Assembly (NCBI RefSeq): GCF_007748035.1
Contig: NZ_CP036278.1
Span: 62,001 to 126,000, forward strand
Length of the DNA: 64,000 nt
Source: Aeoliella mucimassa
GTDB lineage: Bacteria > Planctomycetota > Planctomycetia > Pirellulales > Lacipirellulaceae
Direction: 5' to 3'
Positions 3,299-53,929 of this stretch are shown piece by piece (within the stretch, counting starts at the first letter, position 1; the number at the start of each line of letters is the position of its first letter). Below the pieces are notes generated by a model. It was not told where the DNA came from. It ran no database searches and was given only the letters and a program-made list of their open reading frames with translations. Both the position numbers and the translations under genes were made by a program.

Positions 3299-6200
3299 CT
3301 ACTTACTACGGAGCTGTGTTTGCAGGTCTTCCCAGGGGAGGGTTACCTGGTGGATCCGGCTGCGGAGGCTCACCTCGGGGGGGTGATGGTGCCGGGTGCG
3401 GCGCACTTTGGTCACTTCCTCTTCGATCGCGGCGACCCAGTCGGGGATGTCGAGCCCCGAGCCGGAGGGTTCGGTCACCAGGTTGGCGATTTCGGTTTCG
3501 AGGGCGGCAAACGCTCCGGTATCTTGCTCGTTGTCGATTGCTTTGATCGCCGGGGCGACGAGCACTCGCAGGCGATCGACCGTGAGCGAACGAATGAACC
3601 GCTCGCCCAGGCGTTCGGCCACGGTGGGGAGTCGCATGCCGTACTTGTCGCACAGCGCGGCGAACGCTTGCAGGTAGTGGTCCGCCCGATCGGCCGTTTG
3701 AGCGGCGATGTCGAGCCGCCACATTTCGGCCGCCGAGTCGCGGCCCTGGCGAATCAAAATCTCATGGGCCAGGAACACTGGCTTCATGTTCCACGCACTG
3801 CGGTCGTAGCTGGCTCGCAGTCGCAGGAAGTCGACAAACGAGTAGAACATCTCGCCATGGTCGCTCTGCGTGGTGGTTGCGTTGTAGTCGCGGTACTCGC
3901 GGAAGTTCTCGACCACCGTGTCGATGGCGATGGTCAGCAACTCGATCGCCTGATCGCGCTGAATGCGGGTGCCGAGTTCGTCGACCAGCAGCGAGTGGTC
4001 GTCGTCGGGCTCGAGCTGTTGATTCGACAGCCAGGTGTTCACCCCTTGGTGCAGGATGGATCGCAGGTTGCCCAGGCTGAGGAAGCGTTGGGTAAACAGG
4101 TCGCGACCATAACGATGCACGAAGTCGACAAACTGCGCCCAGTCTTCGCGACTGCCGAGTTTCTCGACCACGCTCAATCGCACGGTTTTGCTGTGTCGCA
4201 GCCAGCGACCAAGTTGCGACTCGGTGAGATCCTGCAGCGCTTCGACCAGCATCAAGTCGTTCGGCGACGAGTTGCCATCCCACTGTTCGGCCGAAGCCAC
4301 CACGCACTCCACCAGCGCCTGATACCCTTGCTCGAACAGGGTGTCGTACTCGGTAATCGCTCCGGGGCCGACGGGGTGCTCGGTTTCCATCCGCTGGGCG
4401 ATGTCGAGCAGTTCGCAGGTTTCACGCACCAGTCCGAGCCTTGGCAGCCAGCCCAAAAGGGCGCGGATCAACCCATGCAATGCGCGGGCTTTCACGATGC
4501 GCGAAGGGCTGCCCCCTTTGCTCAGCGGGACGTACAGCAGCTCTTGAGCAACCAGCGACTTGGCAAAGTGTTCCCAGTGTTGACGCACGCCGGCCGCGTC
4601 GCCCGAGAGTATGGATCGCAGGATTTCGATCGTGCGGGCGATGGCCGACGAGGGGGCCACCTCGCTGGCGTGCGACACTCCCGCTGCTGCGCGAAGCAAT
4701 CGCCCTGCGTCCGACATTTCGACGCACGTGGTAATGATTTGTTCGATCAGCGATTCGAGGATCATCCGCCGGCGGTCGTACTCGACCATCGACTCGTGCG
4801 ACATCGTCGGCGGCGGCACCCGGTGTTGATGCACTTCCTCCAGCAGGTCGACGAGCTGCCCGTACTTCACGACCGCTTCGCGTTGCCAGACATCGAACTG
4901 CTCACGACGTTCCGGTGCCGAGGCGTCCCAGCCGATCGCAGTATGTTTCCACAGCTTGGCAACCGTGGTGAGCAATGCCAAGCGTTCGCGCAGGCGGTTT
5001 GCTTCGTCCTCGAGTTCGTAGTCGCTTGCGTCGGCATCGGGATCGAAGATCGCCGAGTCGAGCCCGTCGTCGGTGCTGTCGCGGTAGGTCACCTCGTCGT
5101 ACGCGGCCTGGAACAGGTTGTCGACGTCGTCGTCTTCCAGCTCGCTCTCATCGCCGTACTCTTCGCCCTCTTCGTAGGCTTCTTCGTCATCATCGAAGAT
5201 CGAATCGTCGGGGCCAGCAAATCGATTGAACGACTTGCCGAGTTCGAACTCCGGCACGTGCCAGTACTCTTCGGCGCTCGCTTCGAGCTGCCCGAAGAAC
5301 CGTGCGAGGAACGGCCATTGGTCGTCGCCCGACTCCTGGCAGCGGGCCGACAGCATCTGCATCCACCGCAGCGCGAGCGGGTGCAGCGAGGCGTCGCCAT
5401 CCTCGAGCGGCGTGTAGTCCACCTGGCTGAGCCATTGCATCATCAGGGCCATCGACGCGACGAGGTCGCCTTTGTCGAGCAGGGCCTCGATCACCAGTTG
5501 GAATGCTTTGGAAGTATCGAAGGTTTCGACGAACATGCCCCAGAAGCCAACATCGCCCGCTGCGGCGCCAGCTTTGTGCCAGGTGTTGAGCGCCCCGGCC
5601 ACCAGGTTGGTGCTGACTTCGATTTCCTTAGCGTCGAGCGACTTCACGCCGCCGACTTGGGTGGAGCCAAACGTATCCCACCAGTCGGCCAGCTTGGTGA
5701 GTTGCTTGCTGAACTTCTCTTCGAGATCGGCCCGGTCGATCGCGGCCGCTTCGGCCCATGCCCGCGAGCAGAGGTCGAGCGTTTGTTCCACCAGTTGAAT
5801 CAGATCGTCGACGCGGTAGTCGCGCACGGTGTCTTCGATGGAGGGGAACAAGCTGAAGTTCGCGCCGAAGCCGAGAATGCTCCAGGGATCGACCAGCGCG
5901 CCGCATTCGATGCCGCGGTTCAGCAGGTCGGTGGTCTCATCCAGGTAAGTTACCACCTGCTCGAGTCGTCGTCGGTCGATCGCGTGATGACCAGCCGTGA
6001 GTCGGCAGTAAATCTGGCACAGCATGCGAGCGGAGGCCACTCGAACCGACTGGGCCTGCTCGAGCGCGGCATCGGGGTAGCCCATGCGAGCGTACACCTG
6101 CGCCAGGTGCACGCGTTGTTGCTGCACCGCCCGGCGGCGGGCCAGTTCGTGATTCAGGTGCTGGCGAGCCCCGCCAAACGGCTGCCGGGTGCGCTCGGCT

Positions 6201-7261
6201 TCGTTCCGCAGCCAGTCGCCATGCGGACCTTTGGTTTGGGCGAGCAGTTGTTCGTAGAACCGATCGCGATAATCGGCAATGTGCGGCAACAGCGTGCCGA
6301 GTGTCACGTCGGAGCCATGGCAGCCAGGCCCGTTGCCGCTGGTGCCCGAGGCCATCAGGATGGTGCCCGCCAGTACCGCGGCCGCTTCGAACATCAGCTG
6401 ATCGGGATCGCGATCGAGCGCTTCGGCTCCCCGGACGCGGGTGAGCAGCGAGCTAACCATCAACGGTTGCAGGATGAACCGACGATAGTAGCCCTTGTTG
6501 TCGATGCGATTGGGATCCCACTGGCCGAAGTGGTAGTTCGGGCGCTTGTTGACGGGATGGTCGAAGTCGTACGCCCGCGGATCGAGCGCGAGTTCCTCCA
6601 GGTGCTCCAGCTGGAACCAGGCGTCGCTCAGCAAGTCGGGCGGGGTGTTGCGGAGAATCTCGAGCGTCTGCTGCACCACTTCTTCGAACGGGCCGGCCGA
6701 GACACCGGCTCCTTCCACGTACAGCGGAATCGGGCAGATCCACTCATGGCGGTACGGTTCGATCTTCTGCGTCTCGAGCACCGGCACCGGGCGGTAGCCA
6801 ATGTAGTTGTCGAGGCTGTCGCGGGCGGCGGCTACCACGTCGTCGATTTCGGTCTCGACCTCCAGCGTGGTGAAGCGAAGCACGGTCTCGAACACGCGGG
6901 CCAGCAGCAGCGGCCGCCAGAGTTCCGCGTCGGTGCGGTGCCGTAGCAAGTCGCGATGGAACTGCCGGTAATCGTCGAGAAACTGGTGGGCGAGCACCTG
7001 TAGTACTTGCCGCACCTGGGAGATATCGCCGAACGCTCCCCCTTCGGCATGCAGGCCCTCGGCCCGGTTGGCGATGGCCGCCAGTAGCTCGGGCACGGTC
7101 TCGTTGCTCGCTCCGGTGTGTTGTTCGACCGCCCGGAACACCTCGTTCAGGTTGGCGAAGAACTTCGGATCGTGCGTTCCCGACGAAAAGTTCAGGTAGC
7201 CGACTACTTCTTGTAGTTTGGCCAGGCAGGCGTCGTCGGGCTGGAACGGGGCAGACGTCAT
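3299..7261 (-). CDS. Large conserved protein of unknown function (1320 aa)
   Basis: This is one of the two longest real genes in the window. The protein is largely alpha-helical in appearance, rich in L, A, E and R, without a signal peptide or membrane helix. A strongly acidic stretch lies at about residues 685-720, where runs of D and E alternate with G and Y. The N-terminus starts MTSAPFQPDD. It probably acts in the cytoplasm. I recognise no enzyme motif; the helical repeats suggest a scaffold or TPR-like protein. The opposite strand is also open for 1236 codons, but that translation is rich in H, G, V and Q in the way typical of antisense of high-GC genes. Confidence 0.8.
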   Translation of the reverse strand: MTSAPFQPDDACLAKLQEVVGYLNFSSGTHDPKFFANLNEVFRAVEQHTGASNETVPELLAAIANRAEGLHAEGGAFGDISQVRQVLQVLAHQFLDDYRQFHRDLLRHRTDAELWRPLLLARVFETVLRFTTLEVETEIDDVVAAARDSLDNYIGYRPVPVLETQKIEPYRHEWICPIPLYVEGAGVSAGPFEEVVQQTLEILRNTPPDLLSDAWFQLEHLEELALDPRAYDFDHPVNKRPNYHFGQWDPNRIDNKGYYRRFILQPLMVSSLLTRVRGAEALDRDPDQLMFEAAAVLAGTILMASGTSGNGPGCHGSDVTLGTLLPHIADYRDRFYEQLLAQTKGPHGDWLRNEAERTRQPFGGARQHLNHELARRRAVQQQRVHLAQVYARMGYPDAALEQAQSVRVASARMLCQIYCRLTAGHHAIDRRRLEQVVTYLDETTDLLNRGIECGALVDPWSILGFGANFSLFPSIEDTVRDYRVDDLIQLVEQTLDLCSRAWAEAAAIDRADLEEKFSKQLTKLADWWDTFGSTQVGGVKSLDAKEIEVSTNLVAGALNTWHKAGAAAGDVGFWGMFVETFDTSKAFQLVIEALLDKGDLVASMALMMQWLSQVDYTPLEDGDASLHPLALRWMQMLSARCQESGDDQWPFLARFFGQLEASAEEYWHVPEFELGKSFNRFAGPDDSIFDDDEEAYEEGEEYGDESELEDDDVDNLFQAAYDEVTYRDSTDDGLDSAIFDPDADASDYELEDEANRLRERLALLTTVAKLWKHTAIGWDASAPERREQFDVWQREAVVKYGQLVDLLEEVHQHRVPPPTMSHESMVEYDRRRMILESLIEQIITTCVEMSDAGRLLRAAAGVSHASEVAPSSAIARTIEILRSILSGDAAGVRQHWEHFAKSLVAQELLYVPLSKGGSPSRIVKARALHGLIRALLGWLPRLGLVRETCELLDIAQRMETEHPVGPGAITEYDTLFEQGYQALVECVVASAEQWDGNSSPNDLMLVEALQDLTESQLGRWLRHSKTVRLSVVEKLGSREDWAQFVDFVHRYGRDLFTQRFLSLGNLRSILHQGVNTWLSNQQLEPDDDHSLLVDELGTRIQRDQAIELLTIAIDTVVENFREYRDYNATTTQSDHGEMFYSFVDFLRLRASYDRSAWNMKPVFLAHEILIRQGRDSAAEMWRLDIAAQTADRADHYLQAFAALCDKYGMRLPTVAERLGERFIRSLTVDRLRVLVAPAIKAIDNEQDTGAFAALETEIANLVTEPSGSGLDIPDWVAAIEEEVTKVRRTRHHHPPEVSLRSRIHQVTLPWEDLQTQLRSK

Positions 7262-7605
7262 ACGGGCCAGGGCAGGGGGGATGCGGAACGTGGAAAGCTG
7301 GGGAAACCACGGGCGAATCGATCGGGCGAGCTGGGGTGGCCGTCAACGGATCGGGCCCCGCGGCTGTCAGCGATAAAATTCGCGACTCTCCGAAATATTA
7401 AGGGATCGGGGGGCTTGGAATCTAGCGCCAGACCCGGTCCGGAATGCCGAAATCCCGTGAACTACCGGTTTTCAGCCGCGAAAACGTGCAACCTCGCTTG
7501 CTGCTAGTTACAATGAAGGGACCCGGAACACTGCCGCAGCTCCATGCATTCGCGTGGAATGTCCGTCGCTGCGTAAGCCTCGTTTAGCTAAGCCTACCTG
7601 TCATC
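7262..7605. other. Divergent intergenic region
   Basis: This gap of 344 bases separates two divergent genes and should hold both promoters. The only site I can point to is the TACAAT-type -10 near 7509, listed separately. Confidence 0.5.
7501..7514 (+). promoter_or_regulatory. Candidate -10 region, CTGCTAGTTACAAT
   Basis: TACAAT at 7509-7514 is a good -10 match about 90 bases before the propeller gene. Nearly the same 14 bases, with G for A, precede the exported protein at the right edge (63786-63799). No good -35 hexamer is visible. Confidence 0.35.
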
Positions 7606-8937
7606 ATGCGCACCTTACCTCTCCGTACGCTCCCGTTGTTGCTAGTCGCCCTCACGTTCGGGGCACTACTTTTGCCGCAATTTGCCGTTGCTCAGTCGGG
7701 TTTGGTCTCCACGCTCAAGGCCGAACGGCTAGGGCTCGAGCGGGGGTGGTTCTCGCAGGCACAAATCGATCGCCAGCGGCATCACGTCGTGAATGCGGTG
7801 CTCGAAGGCGATTTGCTGCTCGTGCTATCGGACTCCGGTGTGCTGCATGCCATGAATGCCGAAACTGGCAAAACTGCCTGGATTGCCCAGTTCGGCAATC
7901 CTAATTATCCCAGCCTCGGTCCGGCCGCGAATAAAGACTCGGTCGCCATGATTAATGGTAGCACGCTTTACGTGCTCGATCGCTCGAATGGGCTACAGAA
8001 GATGATGAAGAAGCTCAGCGGCGGAGCCGGCGGCGGTCCTGCCCTGACCGATGATTACGTGATTGTTCCCATGTTCTCCGGGCGGGTCGAAGCCTACTCG
8101 CTGGGCGAGCCGCTCGATTTCCCGTGGTACTACTCGTCGACCGGCCGGGTGTTCGACTCGCCCGTCGCCACTCCCGATAGCGTGGTATGGCCCACCGATC
8201 GAGGATTCCTGTACGTAGCCAACCGGGGCGACGAGGCAGGTATTCGCTATCGCTTCGAATCGGCCGGCCGCATCATGGGGCATCCCGCCTCGGTCGATGG
8301 CACCCTCTACTTCACCTCGACCAACGGTTACCTGTACGCGATCAACGAACAGAATGGCCAACAAATCTGGCGCTACTCGGTTGGTAGCCCGATCTCCAAG
8401 CCACCGTTGGTCGTCGACGGCATGGCCTACGTGGCCACCGACGAGCCTTCGCTGCACGCGGTCGATATCCAAACCGGCACGCTTCGCTGGCTTACCCCCG
8501 GCGTGTCGCGCGTCGCTGGCGTCGGCAAGACCAACGTCTACGGCATGAATCGATTCGGCCAACTGCTGGTGGTCGACTCCCGTAGCGGAGTGCCGCTTGG
8601 GCAACTCGAAACTTGCCTGTCGACGATGACCGTTAGCAACAGCACGACCGATCGCATTTATCTGGTGAACTCCACCGGCCTGGTGCAGTGCATGCACGAA
8701 GTCGGCAGCGACGAGCCTTACCTGCACGACAACTCGCCAAAGCCGGAAGCGGACGCCGACGAAGCAGCCGATGCGAGCGCCGACGAAGAGCCGATGGACG
8801 AAGCGGCCGATGAGCCAGCCGACGACGCGAATCCGTTCGGTGCCGCCAACAGCAATCCCTTCGGCGACACCAGCAACCCGTTCGGCGATACCGACGACGA
8901 CAACGCCGACGATCCAGAGAACCCATTCCCGTTCTAG
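7606..8937 (+). CDS. Exported PQQ-type beta-propeller protein
   Basis: This 443-residue protein starts with a Sec signal peptide (about 1-29, ending FAVAQS). It continues as WD/PQQ-like blades: repeated patterns of a short strand, G-x-LYV or VYV, then D-x-x-x-G-x-x-x-W, as in LHAMNAETGKTAWIAQFG and LYAINEQNGQQIWRYSVG. This is the BamB/PQQ_2 fold. The last 60 residues are acidic and low-complexity, with NPFG three times. BamB helps outer-membrane protein assembly, but planctomycetes have many such propellers of other uses, so a scaffold or quinone-independent binding role is equally likely. It is a single gene, with the restriction cassette downstream on the other strand. Confidence 0.8.
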   Translation: MRTLPLRTLPLLLVALTFGALLLPQFAVAQSGLVSTLKAERLGLERGWFSQAQIDRQRHHVVNAVLEGDLLLVLSDSGVLHAMNAETGKTAWIAQFGNPNYPSLGPAANKDSVAMINGSTLYVLDRSNGLQKMMKKLSGGAGGGPALTDDYVIVPMFSGRVEAYSLGEPLDFPWYYSSTGRVFDSPVATPDSVVWPTDRGFLYVANRGDEAGIRYRFESAGRIMGHPASVDGTLYFTSTNGYLYAINEQNGQQIWRYSVGSPISKPPLVVDGMAYVATDEPSLHAVDIQTGTLRWLTPGVSRVAGVGKTNVYGMNRFGQLLVVDSRSGVPLGQLETCLSTMTVSNSTTDRIYLVNSTGLVQCMHEVGSDEPYLHDNSPKPEADADEAADASADEEPMDEAADEPADDANPFGAANSNPFGDTSNPFGDTDDDNADDPENPFPF

Positions 8938-45663: not shown

Positions 45664-46827
45664 TAGTACGTCTTTCCTGAAATCCATTCCGCTGCTATAT
45701 GCTGCGGAATGAAAAAGCACATTGTTTGCCTGGACCACCAGGCCCGTGGAGGTTTGGAGCAGCTAGCACGCTCAGGCGCCCGCGCGGCGCAAGTGGTGCG
45801 TCGCTGCCAGATATTATTGAAATCGGACTCGGGATGCACCGACGAAGAGATCGCCGAGCATGTGGGCTGCACGACGCGCAACGTCCGAGCCGTCCGAAAG
45901 CGGTTCTGCGAAGAGGGCGTCCAGCGGGCGGTGTACGATGCGCCTCGCTCGGGCCGCCCCCCAGAGTTCACCAAGCGGCAGCAGCAACAGGTAATCGCCC
46001 TGGCGTGCAGCGAGCCGCCCGAGGGACGGGCTCGCTGGACGCTGGAATTGTTGTGCGAGCACGCGGTGAAGGAAGGCTTCGTCGATTCGCTCAGCGTGAC
46101 GGAGGTCTCGCTGTGGCTCAAGGAACACGACCTGAAGCCGTGGCGAAAAAAACTTGGTGCGTGCCCAAGCTGAACGACGAGTTCTGTGAGCGGATGGAGG
46201 ACGTCCTCGAGCAGTACGAGAAGCCGCTCGACCCGAACGAGCCGGTCGTCTGCCTCGACGAGCAGCCCTATCAGAGGGTCGACGACGCGCGGCCGCCCGA
46301 GCCCGCGGCACCCGGCAAGATCGCGAAGCAGGACTACGAGTACCGCCGCTGCGGAACCTGCAGCGTGTTCGTGGCGGTCGAGCCGAAGGCGGGCAAGCGA
46401 TTCGTTCAGGCCAAGCGTCACCGCAAGCGAGCCGACTTCGCCCGGTTCGTCCGCGACCTCTTGAAGCGCTATCCCGACGCAGAGCGGGTTCATCTGGTGA
46501 TGGACAACCTCAACACGCACAACGAGAAGTCGTTGATCGAAACCTTTGGCGAGGAGGCGGCTCGGCCAATGCTGGAGCGGATTGTGTGGCATTTTACCCC
46601 CAAGCATGCCAGTTGGCTCAACATGGCCGAGATCGAAATCTCGGCCATACAGCGACAATGCCTGGGACGTCGGTTGGCTTCGCTCGACAAGGTTCAAAGC
46701 GAACTCTCCCACTGTTCACGCGACCGCAATCGGAAGAAAATCAAAATCAATTGGACCTTCCATCGAAAAGACGCCAAACGCGTCTTCCCTGAACTCTATA
46801 GGAAATGACTTCCGGGACGACGTACTA
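45664..46827 (+). mobile_element. IS630-family element
   Basis: The element is flanked by TA on each side, and its ends GTACGTC and GACGTAC begin imperfect terminal repeats that match at about 20 of 27 positions. It carries one transposase split by a frameshift site. It lies just upstream of the betaine operon. Confidence 0.8.
45709..46808 (+). CDS. IS630-family transposase with -1 frameshift
   Basis: The first frame (45709-46173, 154 residues) holds the HTH part (CTDEEIAEHVGCTTRNVRAV). The second part, in the -1 frame to the TGA at 46806-46808, has the DDE domain: VVCLDEQPY, HLVMDNLNTHNEKS and SWLNMAEIEIS. A run of seven A (46146-46152, phase A-AAA-AAA) lies where the frames overlap; slipping back by one base gives WRKK-TWCVPKLN and a fused protein of about 366 residues. 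This is the known form of programmed frameshifting in such elements; a plain mutation is the alternative. Confidence 0.85.
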
Positions 46828-46873
46828 GAATCGTACCTGTTCACTGTCGAATGATTCGGTACGCCAGCAGATT

Positions 46874-47761
46874 GTGGTCTGGCGCCTAGATAAAAGGAGG
46901 CTCGTCATCCGCGAAAAACCATTAGCAGCACCACGTAAACAGGAATTCGGTGACAATCCAGTAGAAACTCGGTTGTCCGAAAATTACAAAAACGAGTACG
47001 TCAAGGGGTTCGTCGAAAAGTGGGACGAATTGATCGACTGGGAAAGTCGAGCCAAGACCGAAGGTGATTTCTTTATCGAGCAGCTTCGCGAACGCGGAGC
47101 CAAAAAAGTGCTTGATGTTGCGACCGGAACGGGGTTTCACTCCGTGCGTTTGCTCGAAGCAGGCTTCGAGGTCGTAAGTGCCGACGGTAGCCCTGAAATG
47201 CTTGCCAAAGCGTTTGACAACGGCAAGCAGTACGGTCACATTCTCCGCACCGTGCAAGCCGATTGGCGTTGGCTCAATCGCGACGTGCATGGCACGTACG
47301 ATGCCATCATCTGCCTTGGCAACTCGTTCACGCACCTTTTCAACGAGCGCGACCGCCGCAAAGCGTTGGCCGAATACTATGCCATGCTCGAGCACGATGG
47401 CGTGCTGATCATCGATCAACGCAATTACGATGGCATTCTCGACGATGGGTTTAATAGCAAGCACACCTATTACTACTGCGGCGATCAGGTGTCGGCCGAG
47501 CCAGAGCATGTAGACGATGGGCTCGCCCGCTTCCGCTACAGTTTCCCCGACGAGTCGGTGTACCACCTCAACATGTTCCCGCTCCGGCGGAAGTACCTGC
47601 GTCGACTGATGCATGAAGTTGGTTTCCAGAAGATCGACACCTACGGTGATTTTCAGGAGACGTACCGGGAAGACGATCCCGACTTCTTTATTCACGTTGC
47701 CGAGAAAATCTATCGCGTTGACGACAAAGTGGAAGAAGATGCCGAGGTGGTAAGCAAATGA
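46874..47761 (+). CDS. Glycine/sarcosine N-methyltransferase (GSMT)
   Basis: The enzyme methylates glycine to sarcosine and dimethylglycine with SAM, the first steps to glycine betaine. The SAM motif is VLDVATGTGFHSVRLLEAGF and the family blocks HILRTVQADWRWLNRD, LGNSFTHLFNERDRR and DQRNYDGILDDG are all present. The start is odd. The only standard start is the GTG at 46874, with no ribosome site and eleven extra codons. AAAAGGAGG at 46892-46900 is correctly spaced from an in-frame ATC at 46907, close to where the family usually begins. It overlaps the next gene by ATGA. Confidence 0.92.
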   Translation: MVWRLDKRRLVIREKPLAAPRKQEFGDNPVETRLSENYKNEYVKGFVEKWDELIDWESRAKTEGDFFIEQLRERGAKKVLDVATGTGFHSVRLLEAGFEVVSADGSPEMLAKAFDNGKQYGHILRTVQADWRWLNRDVHGTYDAIICLGNSFTHLFNERDRRKALAEYYAMLEHDGVLIIDQRNYDGILDDGFNSKHTYYYCGDQVSAEPEHVDDGLARFRYSFPDESVYHLNMFPLRRKYLRRLMHEVGFQKIDTYGDFQETYREDDPDFFIHVAEKIYRVDDKVEEDAEVVSK

Positions 47762-48591
47762 GTAGCTCACAAAATCAGGCCGTAACGGTCGCTCGCGACT
47801 ATTACAACAGTGACGATGCCGATGCGTTTTACGCGTTGGTCTGGGGCGGCGAAGACATTCACATCGGGCTCTATGAATCGGAAAACGATTCCATTTCCGA
47901 TGCAAGTCACCGCACGGTGCGGAGCATGGCCGAGCGACTCGGGCCGCTTACAGAGGAAACCTGTTTTCTCGATATCGGTTCTGGGTTCGGTGGTGCGGTG
48001 CGCCATATGGCCCGTGAATATGGCTGTCGCGCGACGGCCCTGAATCTCAGTGAAGTCGAGAACCAGCGGAATCGAAAGGTCAACGAAAAGCAAGGACTTG
48101 CGGATCGCATCGAGGTGGTCGATGGCAATTTTGAGGAACTGCCATTCGAGGATGCAGCGTTCGACGTGGTCTGGTCGCAAGATGCGTTCTTGCATAGCAA
48201 TCGCCGTGATCGTGTGATTGCCGAGGCCGCCCGCGTGCTTAAGCCAGGTGGACAGCTCGTGTTTACCGACCCGATGCAAGCCGACGATTGCCCCGCAGGG
48301 TCGCTGCAACCGATTCTTGATCGATTGCATCTGACCTCGCTGGCATCTCCGTCGTTCTATCGTAGCGCGGCCAAAGAAGCAGGGCTTACGGAAGTTGGTT
48401 TCGAAGATCTTACGCACCAACTGGTAAATCATTACGCGAGCGTGCTGGCGACAACCGAAGCGAACGAGTCGCAACTCACCGAGCAAATCAGTGCCGATTA
48501 TCTCGAGCGCATGAAGGCTGGCCTAAGACACTGGGTCGAAGGTGGCCGCGCGGGATTGCTTGCCTGGGGGGTGTTCCATTTCCGCCGTTGA
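47758..48591 (+). CDS. Sarcosine/dimethylglycine N-methyltransferase (SDMT)
   Basis: This 277-residue SAM-dependent methyltransferase has CFLDIGSGFGGAVRHMAREY (motif I) and NFEELPFEDAAFDVVWSQDA (post-I and motif II). The N-terminus VARDYYNSDDADAFYALVWG and GEDIHIGLYE are typical of SDMT. It makes betaine from sarcosine and dimethylglycine after GSMT. The ATG overlaps the GSMT stop (ATGA), so the two enzymes should be made in fixed ratio. The transporter gene begins 20 bases downstream. Confidence 0.93.
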   Translation: MSSSQNQAVTVARDYYNSDDADAFYALVWGGEDIHIGLYESENDSISDASHRTVRSMAERLGPLTEETCFLDIGSGFGGAVRHMAREYGCRATALNLSEVENQRNRKVNEKQGLADRIEVVDGNFEELPFEDAAFDVVWSQDAFLHSNRRDRVIAEAARVLKPGGQLVFTDPMQADDCPAGSLQPILDRLHLTSLASPSFYRSAAKEAGLTEVGFEDLTHQLVNHYASVLATTEANESQLTEQISADYLERMKAGLRHWVEGGRAGLLAWGVFHFRR

Positions 48592-48610
48592 CACTCAGCC
48601 CGACGAGCCC

Positions 48611-50500
48611 GTGAATCAATCCGACGCCCGTGTGGCAACTGTCAGTTACCGCTTAGGGCGGGTTGATTTCGATGCTCACCCGGTGGTGTTCCCAACCGCT
48701 GCTGCGTTGCTGCTGATTTTCGTTGCAGCAGTGGCCGCTTGGCCAGGGCGCGCGCTATTGTTGTTCGACCGCTTGCAGAGCGGAATCGCGAGCAATTTTG
48801 CCTGGCTCTACATTGCCTCGATGACCGGTTTTCTGGTGTTTGCGGTCTACCTCTGTTTCAGTCGACATGGAAATATCAGACTAGGGCCCGACGATTCGCG
48901 TCCTGAGTTTCCCCGCGCAACCTGGTTCGCCATGTTGTTTAGCGCTGGGATGGGAATCGGCATGCTCTTCTTCGGCGTCGCCGAGCCGATGTGGCACTAC
49001 CTGGCTCCGCCCGCGGGCGAAGCTGGTACGTTGGATGCCGCTCGCGAGGCGATGGGGATCACGCTGTTCCATTGGTGCTTGCACCCGTGGGCGCTCTACG
49101 CATTGGTGGCTTTGGCGCTAGCCTACTTTGGCTATCGCAAGAACTTGCCGCTCAGCTTTCGTTCGGCTTTCTACCCATTGATCGGAGATCGCATACACGG
49201 CCCCATCGGCAATTTCATCGACGTGCTCGCGGTGCTTGCCACTTTGTTCGGACTGGCGACTTCGCTGGGGTTGGGAGCCAAGCAAGTGAATGCAGGGCTG
49301 AACTACGTGTTCGGCTTGCCTCAAGGCGTGGGAGTTCAGATTGTGCTGATTGCCGTGATCACTACCATGGCGGTCGCGTCGCTGGTGTCGGGATTGGATG
49401 TCGGAATTCGTCGTTTGAGCGAGTTCAACATGGTGATCGCCGGCGGGCTGCTGATATTCTTGTTCGTCGCGGGCCCCACGATCTTTCTGCTCGATAGTCT
49501 CGTTGCCAACGTAGGTACCTATTTTCAACAGTTGCCGCGCAATTCGTTTCGCACCGGGGGGTACGACAACCAGTCGAACACCGCCTGGCTCAGCGCGTGG
49601 ACGGTATTCTATTGGGGATGGTGGATCTCCTGGTCGCCATTCGTCGGCATGTTTATCGCCCGTATCTCCAAAGGCCGTACCATACGCGAGTTCATCCTCG
49701 GTGTATTGCTGGTTCCCTCGGCGGTTGCGGCCATCTGGATGACAGGTTTCGGCGGTGCAGCGCTGCATCAGGAGATTTACGATCGCGTCAGCAATACTCC
49801 CACCGTAGCTGAGAAGTACGAGCCGAACGAATACGTCGTGCAAACACTTGATGATGCAACGGGCCTTCCCCTCACTGCCGACGAGCAATGGCTGGTTGGT
49901 CCGAACGCCCGAAATATTGCCACGCCGATCGGGGTGCTTTTGCATGCGACCGACGAAGGGTTCGAGACCAAAAGTGGCATCCCCGTCGAGTACGACCGCG
50001 GCGTGTTGGTGCAAGCGGACGATGGGGTTCCGATTCGACCGACCGACGAGGATCGGCTGGTCGGTGCGTATGCGTCGGAGACCAAAGAGCTAACGCTTGG
50101 CGGCTACCTGACGGAGCCAGTACTCTCGGACGATGCTACGAAGCGCCGCGATACCACTGCGACTGCCTTGTTTGTGATGTTGGACGCCTATCCTTTCTCG
50201 GCAGTTACTGCGCTGTTGGGGACGTTGAGCGTGATCTTGTTCTTCGTTACCTCGTCCGACTCCGCGTCGATGGTTGCCGACATCATCGCCTCGGGCGGCA
50301 AGGAAGACCCTGCCTTGGGAACGCGTTTGTTCTGGGGGATTCTCGAAGGAGTGCTGGCCGCGGTGTTGCTCGTGGCCGGCGGGCTTAAGGCCTTGCAGAC
50401 CGGTTCGATCGTGATTGGCCTACCATTCTGCGTACTGATCATCATCATGTGTTTCGGGCTACTCAAGTCGTTGCAAGCGGAGCCTTCGGCTGCTCGTTGA
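48611..50500 (+). CDS. BCCT-family betaine/choline transporter with an inserted loop
   Basis: This 629-residue transporter has the BCCT blocks GIGMLFFGVAEPMWHY, FHWCLHPWALYALVALALAY, WWISWSPFVGMFIARISKGR and VTSSDSASMVAD. It takes up betaine with a coupling ion for osmoprotection. It is in line with the two betaine synthesis genes, so the cell makes and imports the solute under one control. The start is uncertain: GTG at 48611 gives MNQSD; a GTG further up is inside SDMT. Between the blocks near residues 385 and 512 lies an extra ~100 residues (HQEIYDRVSNTPTVAEKYE...KRRDTTATAL) in the outer loop before the last-but-few helices. Confidence 0.9.
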   Translation: MNQSDARVATVSYRLGRVDFDAHPVVFPTAAALLLIFVAAVAAWPGRALLLFDRLQSGIASNFAWLYIASMTGFLVFAVYLCFSRHGNIRLGPDDSRPEFPRATWFAMLFSAGMGIGMLFFGVAEPMWHYLAPPAGEAGTLDAAREAMGITLFHWCLHPWALYALVALALAYFGYRKNLPLSFRSAFYPLIGDRIHGPIGNFIDVLAVLATLFGLATSLGLGAKQVNAGLNYVFGLPQGVGVQIVLIAVITTMAVASLVSGLDVGIRRLSEFNMVIAGGLLIFLFVAGPTIFLLDSLVANVGTYFQQLPRNSFRTGGYDNQSNTAWLSAWTVFYWGWWISWSPFVGMFIARISKGRTIREFILGVLLVPSAVAAIWMTGFGGAALHQEIYDRVSNTPTVAEKYEPNEYVVQTLDDATGLPLTADEQWLVGPNARNIATPIGVLLHATDEGFETKSGIPVEYDRGVLVQADDGVPIRPTDEDRLVGAYASETKELTLGGYLTEPVLSDDATKRRDTTATALFVMLDAYPFSAVTALLGTLSVILFFVTSSDSASMVADIIASGGKEDPALGTRLFWGILEGVLAAVLLVAGGLKALQTGSIVIGLPFCVLIIIMCFGLLKSLQAEPSAAR

Positions 50501-50528
50501 TGAATCGCGGTTGCTATTCCTTTCCGCT

Positions 50529-51083
50529 TCACACCAAAAACATCGCCAACAGCGGTACGATCAGTCCCGCGGCGACGAGCCATTTGCCGCGGCCGGCCAG
50601 GCCGTTGCGGCCGCGGACGACGATCATCCCCGTCACTGCGATCAGCACCAGGCAGATCGCGAAGACATCGGAAAACACCTTCCACCATTTCGCCGGGTTC
50701 AGGTGTAACCGGTTCAGGTAGTACAACACCGGGCGGCGGCCGATCGTTTCGTGGTGGGTCGATCCATTCGCGAGATTCACCACCATGTCGCCATTAGTCA
50801 GGTAGATTTTCATCCGCTGCGACGAGATGAAATCGTGGCTGCGATAGTTCCCCTCTTCGCCAACCTCGGCCAGGCAACGACGCACTTGCTGTGTGGTCAC
50901 TTGCGTCGCTTCGTTCGGCAGTTCGAGCGTAAGGTCGCGACTCGCAACGACGAAGTTCGGGTTCCAGTCGCCCGCGTGATTCATTGCTAAGCCCGACACC
51001 GCGTACAGCACGACGACGCCGGTAAAGAAGTAGCCCAGGTCGCGATGCAGGAACAACGCCCACGCACGCCATTTGACTTTCAT
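50529..51083 (-). CDS. PepSY-associated membrane protein
   Basis: This 184-residue protein has an N-terminal helix (LHRDLGYFFTGVVVLYAVSG, about 12-34), an outer domain of about 95 residues, and two C-terminal helices (about 137-156 and 163-183), the layout of PepSY_TM proteins. HRDLGY followed by a glycine-rich helix and the LHLNPAKWWKV segment are typical. Family members are linked with iron or siderophore reduction. It follows a CbiX-like lipoprotein by 12 bases in one operon, with a Fur-like site ahead. Confidence 0.85.
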   Translation of the reverse strand: MKVKWRAWALFLHRDLGYFFTGVVVLYAVSGLAMNHAGDWNPNFVVASRDLTLELPNEATQVTTQQVRRCLAEVGEEGNYRSHDFISSQRMKIYLTNGDMVVNLANGSTHHETIGRRPVLYYLNRLHLNPAKWWKVFSDVFAICLVLIAVTGMIVVRGRNGLAGRGKWLVAAGLIVPLLAMFLV

Positions 51084-51095
51084 CGGAGGGTTCCT

Positions 51096-52067
51096 TTACT
51101 CGCTGGCAGGGGATTCGGTCGACTCGGATTGCAACTTGCGGGCGATGGTCACGATCCACTCATTCAGGTTTTTATCGGGCAGGATGGCATCGCCGGCGTA
51201 GGCCACGCGCTCGGGCGCGGACGACTCGGCCACCGCGCCGCCGATGATGCGTCCTTGGAACCCTTCGTCGCGGGCGACCAGCACCGGGATCACAATCACT
51301 CGTTCGCGGCGTGTGAGCAGGTCGTCGATCGCTTGCTTCGTGGGATCGCCCGAGTAGTGAGCGATGTGCCCACACCAGGTGTGGACCACTTCGGCCGCGC
51401 CGGTGGTCTGCTGCACCACTTCGTCGGTGTGGGCGAAGAAGGCTTCCCACTCTTCGTTAAACGGTTCGCTACCGTAGGCGACGAGCACCACACCTTCTTC
51501 GGCCGGCGACTTGCTGAGCTCAGCGAACCGCCGTGGCAGGTTCTTTTCGAGCAACTGCGAGAAGTCGAGCAGCGGGGCGAGGGTGACGGTTGCTTGTGGG
51601 GTGTAGCGTTCGATCCCTTCGGACTCGAGCGTGAGCAGCGACTTCGCGTCTTCCTTCAAGCCGACGATGGTGGGGATGTCGTCGAACGAATGCGAGCTGA
51701 CCGTCAGCAGGATGGGGATGAGGATCACGCGGGTGTAACCTTCGGCGTCGAACTCTTTCAGTCGGGTGGCGATCGAGGGCTCGGTGTACTCCATGAAGGC
51801 CGACTTCACTCCGTCGATGCCCTCGGTCGCCACGAGTTCGGTTTGTACTTCGTCGCCCAGCTGCGTGAGCATCGTTCTCCATTGCTCCGAGTGCGATCCA
51901 TGACTCACGAGCAGAATACCGGTTTTCGCCGGCCCGGCCGGGTGGGGGTCGGCTACCGGGAGCGAGGACTCGGAGGGGGTCGTCTGTTGGCATCCAGCCG
52001 CCAGAAACAGGGCGATCAGGCCAAGGGTGCTCAGGAGTGAGAGCCTTGGCCGACGATAGCGGTTCAT
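51096..52067 (-). CDS. CbiX/CbiK-like chelatase domain lipoprotein
   Basis: This 323-residue protein starts with a lipoprotein signal ending LFLAAGC. Two halves resemble the chelatase fold: ILLVSHGSHSEQW and VVLVAYGSEPFNEEWEAFF each carry the H/Y-G-S phosphate or metal-side loop, and YTRVILIPILLTVSSHSFDD has a histidine suited to metal binding, as does HTWCGHIAHYSGDPTKQ in the second half. Cytoplasmic CbiX inserts cobalt or iron into sirohydrochlorin. An exported, lipid-anchored form probably binds or loads metal or heme outside the cytoplasm. It is paired with the PepSY protein. Confidence 0.8.
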   Translation of the reverse strand: MNRYRRPRLSLLSTLGLIALFLAAGCQQTTPSESSLPVADPHPAGPAKTGILLVSHGSHSEQWRTMLTQLGDEVQTELVATEGIDGVKSAFMEYTEPSIATRLKEFDAEGYTRVILIPILLTVSSHSFDDIPTIVGLKEDAKSLLTLESEGIERYTPQATVTLAPLLDFSQLLEKNLPRRFAELSKSPAEEGVVLVAYGSEPFNEEWEAFFAHTDEVVQQTTGAAEVVHTWCGHIAHYSGDPTKQAIDDLLTRRERVIVIPVLVARDEGFQGRIIGGAVAESSAPERVAYAGDAILPDKNLNEWIVTIARKLQSESTESPASE

Positions 52068-52161
52068 CTTAAGTGCCTACTGCATAAGGAGTTACCCGTC
52101 GCAGTGAAGTTCCGCACTGCGGCGGTCGCGAAAAAAGAAAGTTTGAGCAGCGTTTATTCTA

Positions 52162-52184
52162 TTGATACTGAGACTAAGTCGCAA
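52162..52184. promoter_or_regulatory. Fur-box-like site
   Basis: The minus strand reads TTGCGACTTAGTCTCA and then GTATCAA, with GACT-T-AGTC as the core of an imperfect palindrome (TGAGACT / AGTCGCA), as seen in many iron-repressed promoters. It lies about 95 bases upstream of the CbiX-like gene. Confidence 0.5.
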
Positions 52185-52261
52185 GACAGGGTTGGCACCT
52201 GCAGTAGGCGGGCAGGTGCGGGGGAGTGGGGTACGCGGGGAATTCGGCAGCTCGAGAGTGA

Positions 52262-53929
52262 CTAGTCGCCAGGCACCACCAGCGGCACCTGGTCGCCGGC
52301 GGAGAGTTCCAGCGGCTTGTCGAGCGTTACCACGTTCCCGTCGAGGTACGCCTGACCGGTGACCGATACGGTCATCGTTCCGCTGGCGAGGGTCGGCAAC
52401 GGGGCGTTGGTTTCGGCGAGCCAGTTGAGCAGCATGTCGCCGAGGCGTTGCACCTGTTCGGGGCGCGACTTGGCCAGGTTGTGTTGCTCGCCGATATCGC
52501 TCTTTAGGTTGTAAAGTTCGTACGTTTGATCTTCGTAGCTGTAGATCAGCTTCCAATCGCCAGCCCGCACGACCGACTGCGGGTGTTGGTCGCGGCCGCC
52601 GCCGATCAGGTAGGCGGGCAGGTGCCAGTAGAGGGCCTCACGAGCGAGTTCATGGGATGGATCGGCCAGCATCGCCGACAGGTCGGCTCCATCGAGTTGC
52701 GTGTTGTTCGGCAGGTCGACGCCGGCCAGTTTCGAGAACGTGGGGTAGAAGTCGATGCCGTAAACGGGAGTCGAGTTCACGATGCCCGGCGCTACGAGTT
52801 TGGGGTTCGCACTCCAAGCAACCAGCGGTACGCGAATGCCACCTTCGTCGAGTTCGCCCTTCTCTCCTTTCAACGGACCATTGTTCGATTGCTGAAGCTT
52901 GCCGCCATTGTCGGAGTAGAACAGTAGCAGCGTGTTGTCGGCTAGCTTTTGGCCTGGATTCCGCGGGTCGTCGGTTGTCTTCAAGTAGGCGACAAGGCGG
53001 GCGACGTTTTGATCGAGCCCTTCGATGAGCGCGGCAAACGAAGCGTTGCTGTCGTGCTCGCCGGGAGTCTTGCTCAGATACTTCTTCAGCAGGTCGGGGC
53101 GGGCTTGTTTGTTGCCGATTGGCGTGTGCACCGCGTAGGGATGGAACTGCACGACAAACGGCTTCGCGGTTTGTTGCTTCATGAAGTCGATGGCCGCGTC
53201 GGTCATGGCATCCGATACGTGCTTGTTGCTACCCACGAGCGCATCGACCAGCGCGGTGTCGATTGCGGTGGAGTAAGGCTTAATGTTTTGGTCGACATAC
53301 GCCTGCGTGTAAGGTGTCGCGTACTTGTCGAGTTCGGGTTCGATATGCGGGCCAAACTGCCCGGCGCTGGATTGATACGTGGTCGGCGCGCCGAACGGTC
53401 CGCCGCCGAAGTTCTTCTCGAAGCCATGATCGCGCGTGATCGCAGCGGGCTCGGTCGCAACATGGAACTTGCCGAAGTGAGCGGTCGCGTAGCCCGCGTT
53501 GTCGCGCAGGTGCTCCGCGTAGGTATACGTGCTGGCGGGGATGGCGTCGTCGCCATCGACCCCTTGAGGTGGGCCGACGAGCAGGGCCGACTTGCCGCCG
53601 CGGTTGGTGCTACCGACCTGATACACCCGGTTGGTCGGTCGCTGGGCCCACTGCCCGCTGAGGATCGCCGCTCGGGTGGGGGCGCAGTTGGTGCCGTTGG
53701 TGTAGGCGTTGGTGAAGGCCATGCCTTCGTGGGCCAGGCGGTCGAGCGCTGGCGTTTCGTAGAAGTCGCTCGGCTGCCCCATGGTGGTGAGCGGGTTGCT
53801 AGTGTCGGCCCAGCCGAGGTCGTCGGCCATGATCAGCACGATGTTCGGTTGAGCAGCAGAGCAGGGGGCCGCCATCCAATTGCTGAGGGTAGCTAGTAGA
53901 GATAGCCAAAATAGGTAGGTCGATCGCAT
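52262..53929 (-). CDS. Exported sulfatase
   Basis: This 555-residue sulfatase has a signal peptide (about 1-26), the metal pair in PNIVLIMADDLGWADT and the formylglycine motif C82-A-P-T-R86 in NGTNCAPTRAAILSGQW; later FVQFHPYAVHTPIG and FYSDNGGKLQQSNNGPLKGE are the second metal side and substrate region. It is expected to be activated by a formylglycine-generating enzyme. It likely desulfates algal or animal glycans. The ATG at 53929 places the signal peptide at the N-terminus; a 35-codon upstream extension is not convincing. It is not in an operon. Confidence 0.92.
   Translation of the reverse strand: MRSTYLFWLSLLATLSNWMAAPCSAAQPNIVLIMADDLGWADTSNPLTTMGQPSDFYETPALDRLAHEGMAFTNAYTNGTNCAPTRAAILSGQWAQRPTNRVYQVGSTNRGGKSALLVGPPQGVDGDDAIPASTYTYAEHLRDNAGYATAHFGKFHVATEPAAITRDHGFEKNFGGGPFGAPTTYQSSAGQFGPHIEPELDKYATPYTQAYVDQNIKPYSTAIDTALVDALVGSNKHVSDAMTDAAIDFMKQQTAKPFVVQFHPYAVHTPIGNKQARPDLLKKYLSKTPGEHDSNASFAALIEGLDQNVARLVAYLKTTDDPRNPGQKLADNTLLLFYSDNGGKLQQSNNGPLKGEKGELDEGGIRVPLVAWSANPKLVAPGIVNSTPVYGIDFYPTFSKLAGVDLPNNTQLDGADLSAMLADPSHELAREALYWHLPAYLIGGGRDQHPQSVVRAGDWKLIYSYEDQTYELYNLKSDIGEQHNLAKSRPEQVQRLGDMLLNWLAETNAPLPTLASGTMTVSVTGQAYLDGNVVTLDKPLELSAGDQVPLVVPGD

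Follow-up and report, generated by a model that had tools for sequence, protein, structure and literature searches.

A lipobox-bearing CbiX-type chelatase and its PepSY partner as a candidate system for the release of iron from heme

The described systems closest to the gene pair treated here are HmuS, a protein of Bacteroidota, and the Porphyromonas gingivalis lipoprotein that goes by the names IhtB and FetB, which we take to be one protein. Release of iron from heme without breakage of the ring was an open question before the HmuS work of 2025 (PMC12583661), according to which HmuS removes iron from heme in Bacteroides thetaiotaomicron, the bound heme must be reduced, the way in which this happens is not yet known, and the operon has the order hmuYRSTUV. 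IhtB is a CbiK-like lipoprotein proposed to strip heme iron outside the cell (PMC10913741, PMC6460266, PMC13227078), and FetB is presented in a review as a porphyrin chelatase making Mn-protoporphyrin, with a question mark on iron removal (PMC13402209). Among PepSY proteins, the PepSY_TM group includes periplasmic ferrisiderophore reductases with a His-held heme and possibly acts on copper too (PMC13038864), and PepSY genes are among those most induced by iron starvation in B. thetaiotaomicron (PMC10434189). A PepSY gene also appears in maps of hmu-type loci, the figure legend of which names no chelatase of the kind described below (PMC12106395). Here we analyze two adjacent genes, coding for an exported CbiX-type chelatase and a PepSY membrane protein, in a stretch of 64,000 nucleotides of the planctomycete Aeoliella mucimassa (contig NZ_CP036278.1, positions 62,001 to 126,000; this whole stretch is called the window). 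We favor, with modest confidence, the reading that they form a heme-iron release module, i.e., an extracytoplasmic class II chelatase that de-chelates heme with the PepSY protein as its reductase partner. A search of the open-access literature, with most subscription journals outside its reach, found no description of a CbiX-PepSY pair in the texts available. The sequence-only reading that pointed to this locus had suggested an outer metal-acquisition step not yet described, for which IhtB/FetB is a precedent in concept, being an outer chelatase-like heme lipoprotein.

The two genes are on the same strand, with the PepSY gene 12 nt downstream of the chelatase gene, and the sequence-only reading was correct in its positions and motifs (Table 1). 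The chelatase scored 53.2 bits against the CbiX family (cut-off 22). Its AlphaFold2 model, made from 38 rows (predicted local distance difference test, pLDDT, 86.3), has the two domains of a class II chelatase. The nearest solved fold was SirB (5zt8, Z 18.6 over 244 residues), followed by ferrochelatases (Z about 16 to 13), CbiK (1qgo, 14.7) and CbiX (4ccs, 14.0), and the matches extended to exported or surface chelatases, namely the periplasmic CbiK of Desulfovibrio (2xvz, Z 13.9) and FetB of P. gingivalis (9b86, Z 13.7). Both His56 (36/36) and His126 (38/38) are invariant and align with histidines of solved CbiX, CfbA and SirB structures that are presumably the catalytic ones. The second domain has an invariant Y198-G199 in place of the HG motif, and W231-C232-G233-H234 (WCGH) is invariant as well (38/38). 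The protein remained under the cut-offs of the sirohydrochlorin nickelochelatase models NF002090 and NF033198 (65.6 and 61.9 bits vs. 120) and of CbiK (PF06180, the family of IhtB and of the periplasmic CbiK, CbiKP; 15.5 bits vs. 26.2), and, with its 323 residues, it had no match to the CobN domain of HmuS/CobN (PF02514, about 1400 aa) at E up to 1. The extracytoplasmic CbiX-type chelatase that had been claimed is borne out by the export signal and the class II fold of the window protein.

Regarding the anchor, the window protein has GLIALFLAAG followed by Cys26 after a hydrophobic signal, matching what we assume to be the lipoprotein pattern. A strict lipobox was found in 18 of 36 proteins (5/15 Planctomycetota, 10/16 Bacteroidota, 3/3 Myxococcota and 0/2 Chloroflexota). 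Another hydrophobic N-terminus, in several cases with a Cys in a near-lipobox, was present in 15 of the other 18, the rest being the two Chloroflexota proteins, without a hydrophobic N-terminus, and that of locus L049, the start of which is uncertain. Location outside the cytoplasm is thus predicted to be a conserved feature, with a lipid anchor that is common and not universal, so that the anchor proposed earlier stands for the window protein and does not extend to the whole family.

The PepSY protein scored 53.6 bits against PF16357 (PepSY_TM_like_2, cut-off 27) and did not reach the cut-off of PF03929 (26.1 vs. 28.8). All 36 members of the PepSY alignment (A4) matched PF16357 (E up to 0.001). 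In the model (pLDDT 84.2) one long helix precedes the single PepSY domain and two follow it, and three histidines are invariant, His13 (35/35), His36 (36/36) and His127 (36/36). This is not the FoxB type, with its two PepSY domains and two His pairs for two hemes. The protein is smaller than FoxB, and for this reason may need to form a dimer if electrons pass through heme. The 50 Foldseek matches listed included no FoxB structure, a result that has no bearing on kinship.

The strongest observation concerns the pairing itself. Scanning a five-sequence alignment against genome contigs gave 39 homologous loci, 16 in Planctomycetota, 18 in Bacteroidota, 3 in Myxococcota/Deltaproteobacteria and 2 in Chloroflexota, two of which (L043 and L069) derive from one metagenome-assembled genome (MAG). 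As in the window, a PepSY gene was found by tblastn directly 3' of the chelatase gene in 36 of the 39; clustering of open reading frames (ORFs) overlooked it in L038, L039 and L057, masked there by other reading frames. It was not found in L068 and L072, the contigs of which break off within the chelatase gene, nor in L066, a Chloroflexota locus coding for a chelatase without signal peptide. The comparison with other CbiX loci is clear, since none of 26 (one of the window genome and 25 of relatives, counting only matches assigned as loci and not every weak match) had PepSY within flanks of 1.5 kb. The conserved pairing that had been anticipated is therefore far beyond chance. Furthermore, the distances among chelatases and among PepSY proteins co-vary (Mantel r 0.86 for 33 pairs, without L066, L068, L069, L070, L072, L075 and L076), a value reached by none of 2000 controls in which PepSY labels were shuffled within phyla (mean 0.65, maximum 0.72). 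A chelatase tree of 35 rows (without L069, L070 and L072) was mostly split by phylum, with one label change for Planctomycetota and two for Bacteroidota. The underlying chelatase alignment (A3) was made without L075 and L076 and with the L062 protein entered up to 8780, although its frame continues to 8840; the PepSY alignment was made without L069, and the count of N-termini without L069 and L070.

The pair is widespread. Strong homologues (E 1e-100 or better) were present in five of 59 genomes searched, i.e., the window genome, which is one of the five, and 58 relatives. Among 392 sampled Planctomycetota genomes the chelatase was found in seven, including the window genome and several already represented in the 39 loci. 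Here the co-occurrence expected across planctomycetes held for the partner, PepSY being present with six of the seven chelatases, but the chelatase itself is rare. The seventh match (L143, in the MAG contig G228:C379) is distant (E 3e-35), with no PepSY gene nearby on a contig of 3.7 kb. As a separate observation, neither Chloroflexota member (L066, 7989-8816; L068, 4733-5500) has a signal peptide when read from the nearest ATG, and L066 has no PepSY gene either; they are possibly a cytoplasmic offshoot. In viral contigs two stretches matched a pattern, neither of them encoding a relative, and Rfam gave no match over 50000-52600 at the gathering score.

Outside Planctomycetota the pair resides in heme-uptake clusters, a setting that is newly described here. 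Clustering of neighbors together with tblastn located a HmuY lipoprotein near 12 and a TonB receptor near 10 of the 18 Bacteroidota loci. Pfam confirmed HmuY at every one of the seven loci scored (L044, 1.6e-23; L048, 8.1e-22; L050, 1e-23; L051, 4.2e-8; L052, 1.1e-18; L053, 1.7e-24; L058, 6.6e-21) and the receptor at every one of the five scored for it (L044, L052, L053, L058 and L071). Two of the three Myxococcota loci (L061 and L062, Table 1) have the gene order receptor-HmuY-HmuY-CbiX-PepSY, with genes overlapping or closely spaced and every HmuY above the Pfam cut-off. In a wider stretch of the L052 genome (L144, Chitinophagaceae) the receptor and HmuY are on one strand, divergent from a row consisting of CbiX, PepSY, a CobN/HmuS of 1460 residues (1.2e-296), a protein of 226 residues without Pfam match, an ExbB-type protein and a DUF2149 protein. 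We take the last genes of this row to be HmuT, HmuU and HmuV, and the whole may be read as hmuYRSTUV with CbiX-PepSY inserted. Ferritin-like genes flank the pair in L049, L060 and L073, a DtxR/IdeR-type repressor gene is directly upstream in L065, and an AraC regulator was found at L045. The metal acquisition proposed by the sequence-only reading is linked in this way to iron and heme, and the HmuY, receptor and, once, HmuS neighbors sharpen it to iron from heme.

Other genes were seen next to the pair. Directly upstream of it, in three Planctomycetota loci, there is a related secreted protein, namely in L041 (4554-7844, 1096 residues), L049 (4869-7778, 969 residues) and L057 (37-300, 87 residues, cut by the contig end), which could be a surface partner replacing HmuY. 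Proteins with DxDxDGD-like repeats precede the pair in three Planctomycetota loci (L064, 99-1514; L073, 6228-7907; L075, 6298-7854); they clustered with an ORF of L057, and the motifs were spotted by eye in L064 and L073.

We searched for CobN/HmuS (PF02514) in 37 genomes with the family, the window genome and the 36 genomes behind the loci from outside Chloroflexota. It was not found in 34 of them, a provisional count, most being MAGs. The three positives were the L052 genome, where the gene is beside the pair, and the Planctomycetota genomes of L041 and L060, where it is on other contigs. The L041 genome has a row TonB receptor-CobN-ExbB-DUF2149 (L147, 4632-11972, G060:C36) with no HmuY nearby, a predicted hmu-like HmuS locus outside Bacteroidota in a genome that has CbiX-PepSY on another contig. 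In that of L060 the CobN gene is split, and a TonB receptor comes before it on its contig. With both together in three of the 37 genomes, we abandoned the view of the pair as a constant replacement of HmuS.

The sequence-only reading had also noted a Fur-like box ahead of the pair. The inner 15-mer of TTGCGACTTAGTCTCA is indeed a 7-1-7 palindrome with six of seven pairs matched, which by itself is not beyond chance (350 bases should contain about 0.4 of them by our estimate). The TTGCGA of the box is the -35 hexamer of the sole sigma-70-like site in 50300-52500, which is weak evidence (shuffle mean 0.4). A 13-base core of TGATACTGAGACTAAGTCGCA recurs in the promoter region of L047, a Planctomycetota homologue; of 4000 random pairs, 18 had at least 13 bases in common, coding matches included. 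As a planctomycete promoter motif the site did not hold: the 9-base piece common to L060 is not significant (random mean 8.2), L038 has a similar site, and most other loci have none. The pattern scan was built on the window and L045 patterns and is biased toward both. In five Bacteroidota promoter regions (L045, L053, L054, L071 and L074, the last the weakest) there is a palindrome that has TCTAAAT or ATTTAGA as arms and is akin to ATTTAGAATTATTCTAAAT. Eight or more of nine pairs were matched in six of 16 Bacteroidota promoter regions vs. 2.3% of shuffles, the sixth (L048) resembling a terminator hairpin. These palindromes resemble Fur boxes. In the window genome the box motif, with up to two mismatches, had 43 matches vs. 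12 for the reversed pattern, counting both strands. Fur control of the predicted operator is plausible, a fair guess.

Some further sites were noted in the same genome. One copy of the box with one mismatch is located between lspA-like and Rrf2-type genes (G000:C1:3047521-3047537; genes named on inspection). Upstream of a FUR-family gene (L116, at 4874; G000:C1 about 5048900-5049200) there are several GGGAATCTATTC-like repeats, which occur in both orientations, perhaps a dispersed repeat of this genome. Matches to a looser pattern upstream of a TonB receptor gene (L114, at a distance of about 510 nt) and of the L116 gene (about 240 nt) were not counted because they are among such repeats, as seen by eye in L116 and inferred in L114.

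Under the reading that we favor, heme or a related iron porphyrin would enter across the outer membrane via a TonB-dependent receptor, and the anchored chelatase would bind it outside the cytoplasm and run the chelatase reaction in reverse, in which the metal and the pyrrole nitrogens would be handled by His56 and His126. The PepSY protein would pass electrons outward via heme on its conserved membrane-edge histidines, and iron would leave as Fe(II), importable by FeoB. At low iron a Fur-type repressor would come off the promoter, and the pair would be expressed. Heme as the planctomycete substrate, the chelatase activity itself, the direction in which it runs, the path of the electrons and the repressor are what we infer. 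The window genome has three TonB plug proteins elsewhere, two strong FeoB matches and its own ferrochelatase, so that the cell would draw on heme for iron and would not depend on it for porphyrin. Tentatively, Bacteroidota, Myxococcota and Planctomycetota may even have in CbiX-PepSY a second heme de-chelatase system, non-homologous to the first, in which a small class II enzyme works with its own membrane reductase; most of the genomes with it have no detectable HmuS, and a few have HmuS next to it or elsewhere. If all this is true, free-living bacteria would take iron from heme with the porphyrin ring intact via a route unlike that of any enzyme shown to do so, a compact enzyme for reverse chelation would be at hand with its likely electron donor, and heme-iron recycling would extend to planctomycetes. 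The annotation "sirohydrochlorin cobaltochelatase" on a protein with a signal peptide may then not imply B12 or siroheme synthesis.

Several results weigh against the release of iron from heme by this pair. No HmuY was nearby in six of the 18 Bacteroidota loci, nor in L072 of Myxococcota, and none was found in 15 Planctomycetota genomes with the pair, a search that was positive in eight of ten other genomes. The window genome (one contig of 6.6 Mb, rated 96% complete) gave no HmuY either, and neither HmuY nor HmuR is beside the window pair, which is accordingly no member of a Hmu system; its link to heme would come by homology. No TonB receptor adjoins it, and of the 16 other Planctomycetota loci only L073 has one in the flank, in a search with receptors from other phyla as the queries and with part of the neighbors scored. 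The Fur-like box has none of its 43 matches upstream of the genome's three TonB receptor, two FeoB and two FUR-family genes (the last at G000 2588994 and 5048545). The PepSY model had no Foldseek match at E <= 0.001 in the PDB. The two Chloroflexota members without signal peptide mean that the family is not always extracytoplasmic, and the coexistence of CobN/HmuS with the pair in three genomes that the pair is no strict substitute for it. Finally, loss of a CbiK-type gene in Bacteroides fragilis had no effect on heme-iron use (unpublished data in PMC6460266), which advises caution against taking class II chelatases for de-chelatases.

This last result would fit a surface chelatase that inserts or exchanges metal, i.e., that loads free porphyrin with Co, Mn or another metal, or exchanges the iron of heme for such a metal, instead of supplying the cell with iron, a role that we consider unlikely. 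Class II chelatases normally insert metal, and the fold list above includes FetB and the periplasmic CbiK of Desulfovibrio. The review cited before describes FetB-dependent Mn-protoporphyrin IX in P. gingivalis (PMC13402209), and the B. fragilis gene was dispensable for heme-iron use (PMC6460266). Against this stand the heme-uptake genes, ferritin-like genes, iron-dependent repressor and Fur-type boxes nearby, and the constant partner from a family known for metal reduction. We also see little chance that the CbiX domain is a non-catalytic carrier, binding heme and handing it to PepSY or an importer with its iron retained. The C-terminal half, with YG for HG and the invariant WCGH, indicates a family that drifted from classic SirB, and three genomes have a true HmuS as well; yet the N-terminal catalytic His pair and the DDIP are conserved throughout, and a mere carrier would not need them.

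A pair devoted to siderophores, copper, cobalt or nickel, in which the CbiX lipoprotein receives the metal from a complex reduced by PepSY, would be in keeping with the reduction of ferrisiderophores, and possibly copper, by PepSY_TM proteins (PMC13038864). CbiX/CfbA proteins handle Co and Ni, and no HmuY was found in planctomycetes; nevertheless, the HmuY neighbors in Bacteroidota and Myxococcota and the HmuS neighbor in L144 indicate a porphyrin, making this alternative quite improbable. An ordinary sirohydrochlorin chelatase of siroheme or B12 synthesis with a chance signal peptide is very improbable: sirohydrochlorin chelatases are the top sequence models, but the scores are far under their curated cut-offs (65.6 vs. 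120 bits), the precursors of siroheme and B12 are cytoplasmic, the window genome has a second CbiX without adjoining PepSY, and the pairing with PepSY and HmuY would be left unexplained.

The two genes that flank the window pair are not part of a metal system. Upstream on the same strand there is a sulfatase gene, and downstream a convergent gene for a betaine-type BCCT transporter. The latter belongs to a row at 46874-50500 (+) with a glycine/sarcosine N-methyltransferase (NF051855, 509 bits) and a gene resembling sarcosine/dimethylglycine methyltransferases (395 bits, below the cut-off of 550), probably a cluster for synthesis and uptake of glycine betaine. At 45699-46854 (+) overlapping frames resemble a broken transposase, which we take to be of the IS630 type.

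Table 1. Coordinates of the pair and its associated features in the window, and of the gene rows with the same pair in two Myxococcota loci.
Locus	Feature	Position	Strand	Basis
Window	CbiX-type class II chelatase, two-domain, 323 aa, N-terminal signal and lipobox	51096..52067	-	PF01903 (E 4e-14), AlphaFold2 model
Window	PepSY_TM_like_2 protein, 184 aa, one PepSY domain, three long hydrophobic helices (model)	50529..51083	-	PF16357 (E 3.9e-14)
Window	Signal peptide with lipobox	51990..52067	-	Predicted lipidated Cys26, codon at 51990-51992; pattern match GLIALFLAAGC
Window	His56 codon (HGS motif)	51900..51902	-	Column of first catalytic His of CbiX/CfbA/SirB; profile alignment to 6m25, 5zt7
Window	His126 codon (SSHSFDDIP)	51690..51692	-	Column of second catalytic His of CbiX (HxxxDIP); alignments
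Window	Fur-like inverted repeat TTGCGACTTAGTCTCA, part of TGATACTGAGACTAAGTCGCA as read on the + strand	52169..52184	-	Palindrome; 13-base core common to L047 promoter region
Window	Sigma-70-like promoter TTGCGA-17-TAGAAT, overlapping the box	52156..52184	-	1 found vs. mean 0.4 in shuffles
L062	TonB receptor	4055-6034
L062	HmuY	6031-7128		3.5e-8
L062	HmuY	7132-7869		3.3e-11
L062	CbiX	from 7869
L062	PepSY	from 8858
L061	TonB receptor	4025-6028
L061	HmuY	6028-7113		4.5e-8
L061	HmuY	7117-7920		1.4e-11
L061	CbiX	from 7920
L061	PepSY	from about 8840

Compared with known systems, the pair is like HmuS and the hmuYRSTUV cluster of Bacteroidota in the reaction proposed (Fe out, protoporphyrin IX left), the extracytoplasmic location, the HmuY and TonB receptor neighbors and the L144 cluster. 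However, HmuS is a class I protein of the CobN type with about 1460 residues, while the window chelatase is of class II (CbiX), has about 320 residues and comes with a dedicated PepSY partner. The periplasmic CbiK of Desulfovibrio vulgaris (CbiKP) is likewise an exported class II chelatase of similar fold and reportedly binds heme, but belongs to the CbiK family, and we know of neither a lipobox nor a PepSY partner for it. SirB, CbiX and CfbA give the best fold match and a sequence match, with both catalytic histidines kept. They act in cytoplasmic biosynthesis, whereas the window protein is marked by an export signal, by a second domain that is degenerate and contains the invariant WCGH, and by the PepSY partner. 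On the PepSY side, the proteins of the FoxB/CrpH type have the same PepSY fold between membrane helices and invariant histidines near the membrane edges, but in FoxB there are two PepSY domains and four histidines that ligate heme (PMC13038864) instead of one domain and three invariant histidines. IhtB/FetB has in common with the window protein the lipoprotein nature, the class II chelatase fold and the suggested removal of iron from heme (PMC10913741). It differs in being of the CbiK type, in belonging to an Iht system with IhtA and IhtC-E for which the available part of that paper describes no PepSY protein, and in being reportedly outside PgFur control, unlike the regulation proposed here (PMC10913741). 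Most likely, the CbiX-PepSY pair is a variant of the known extracytoplasmic heme chelatases.

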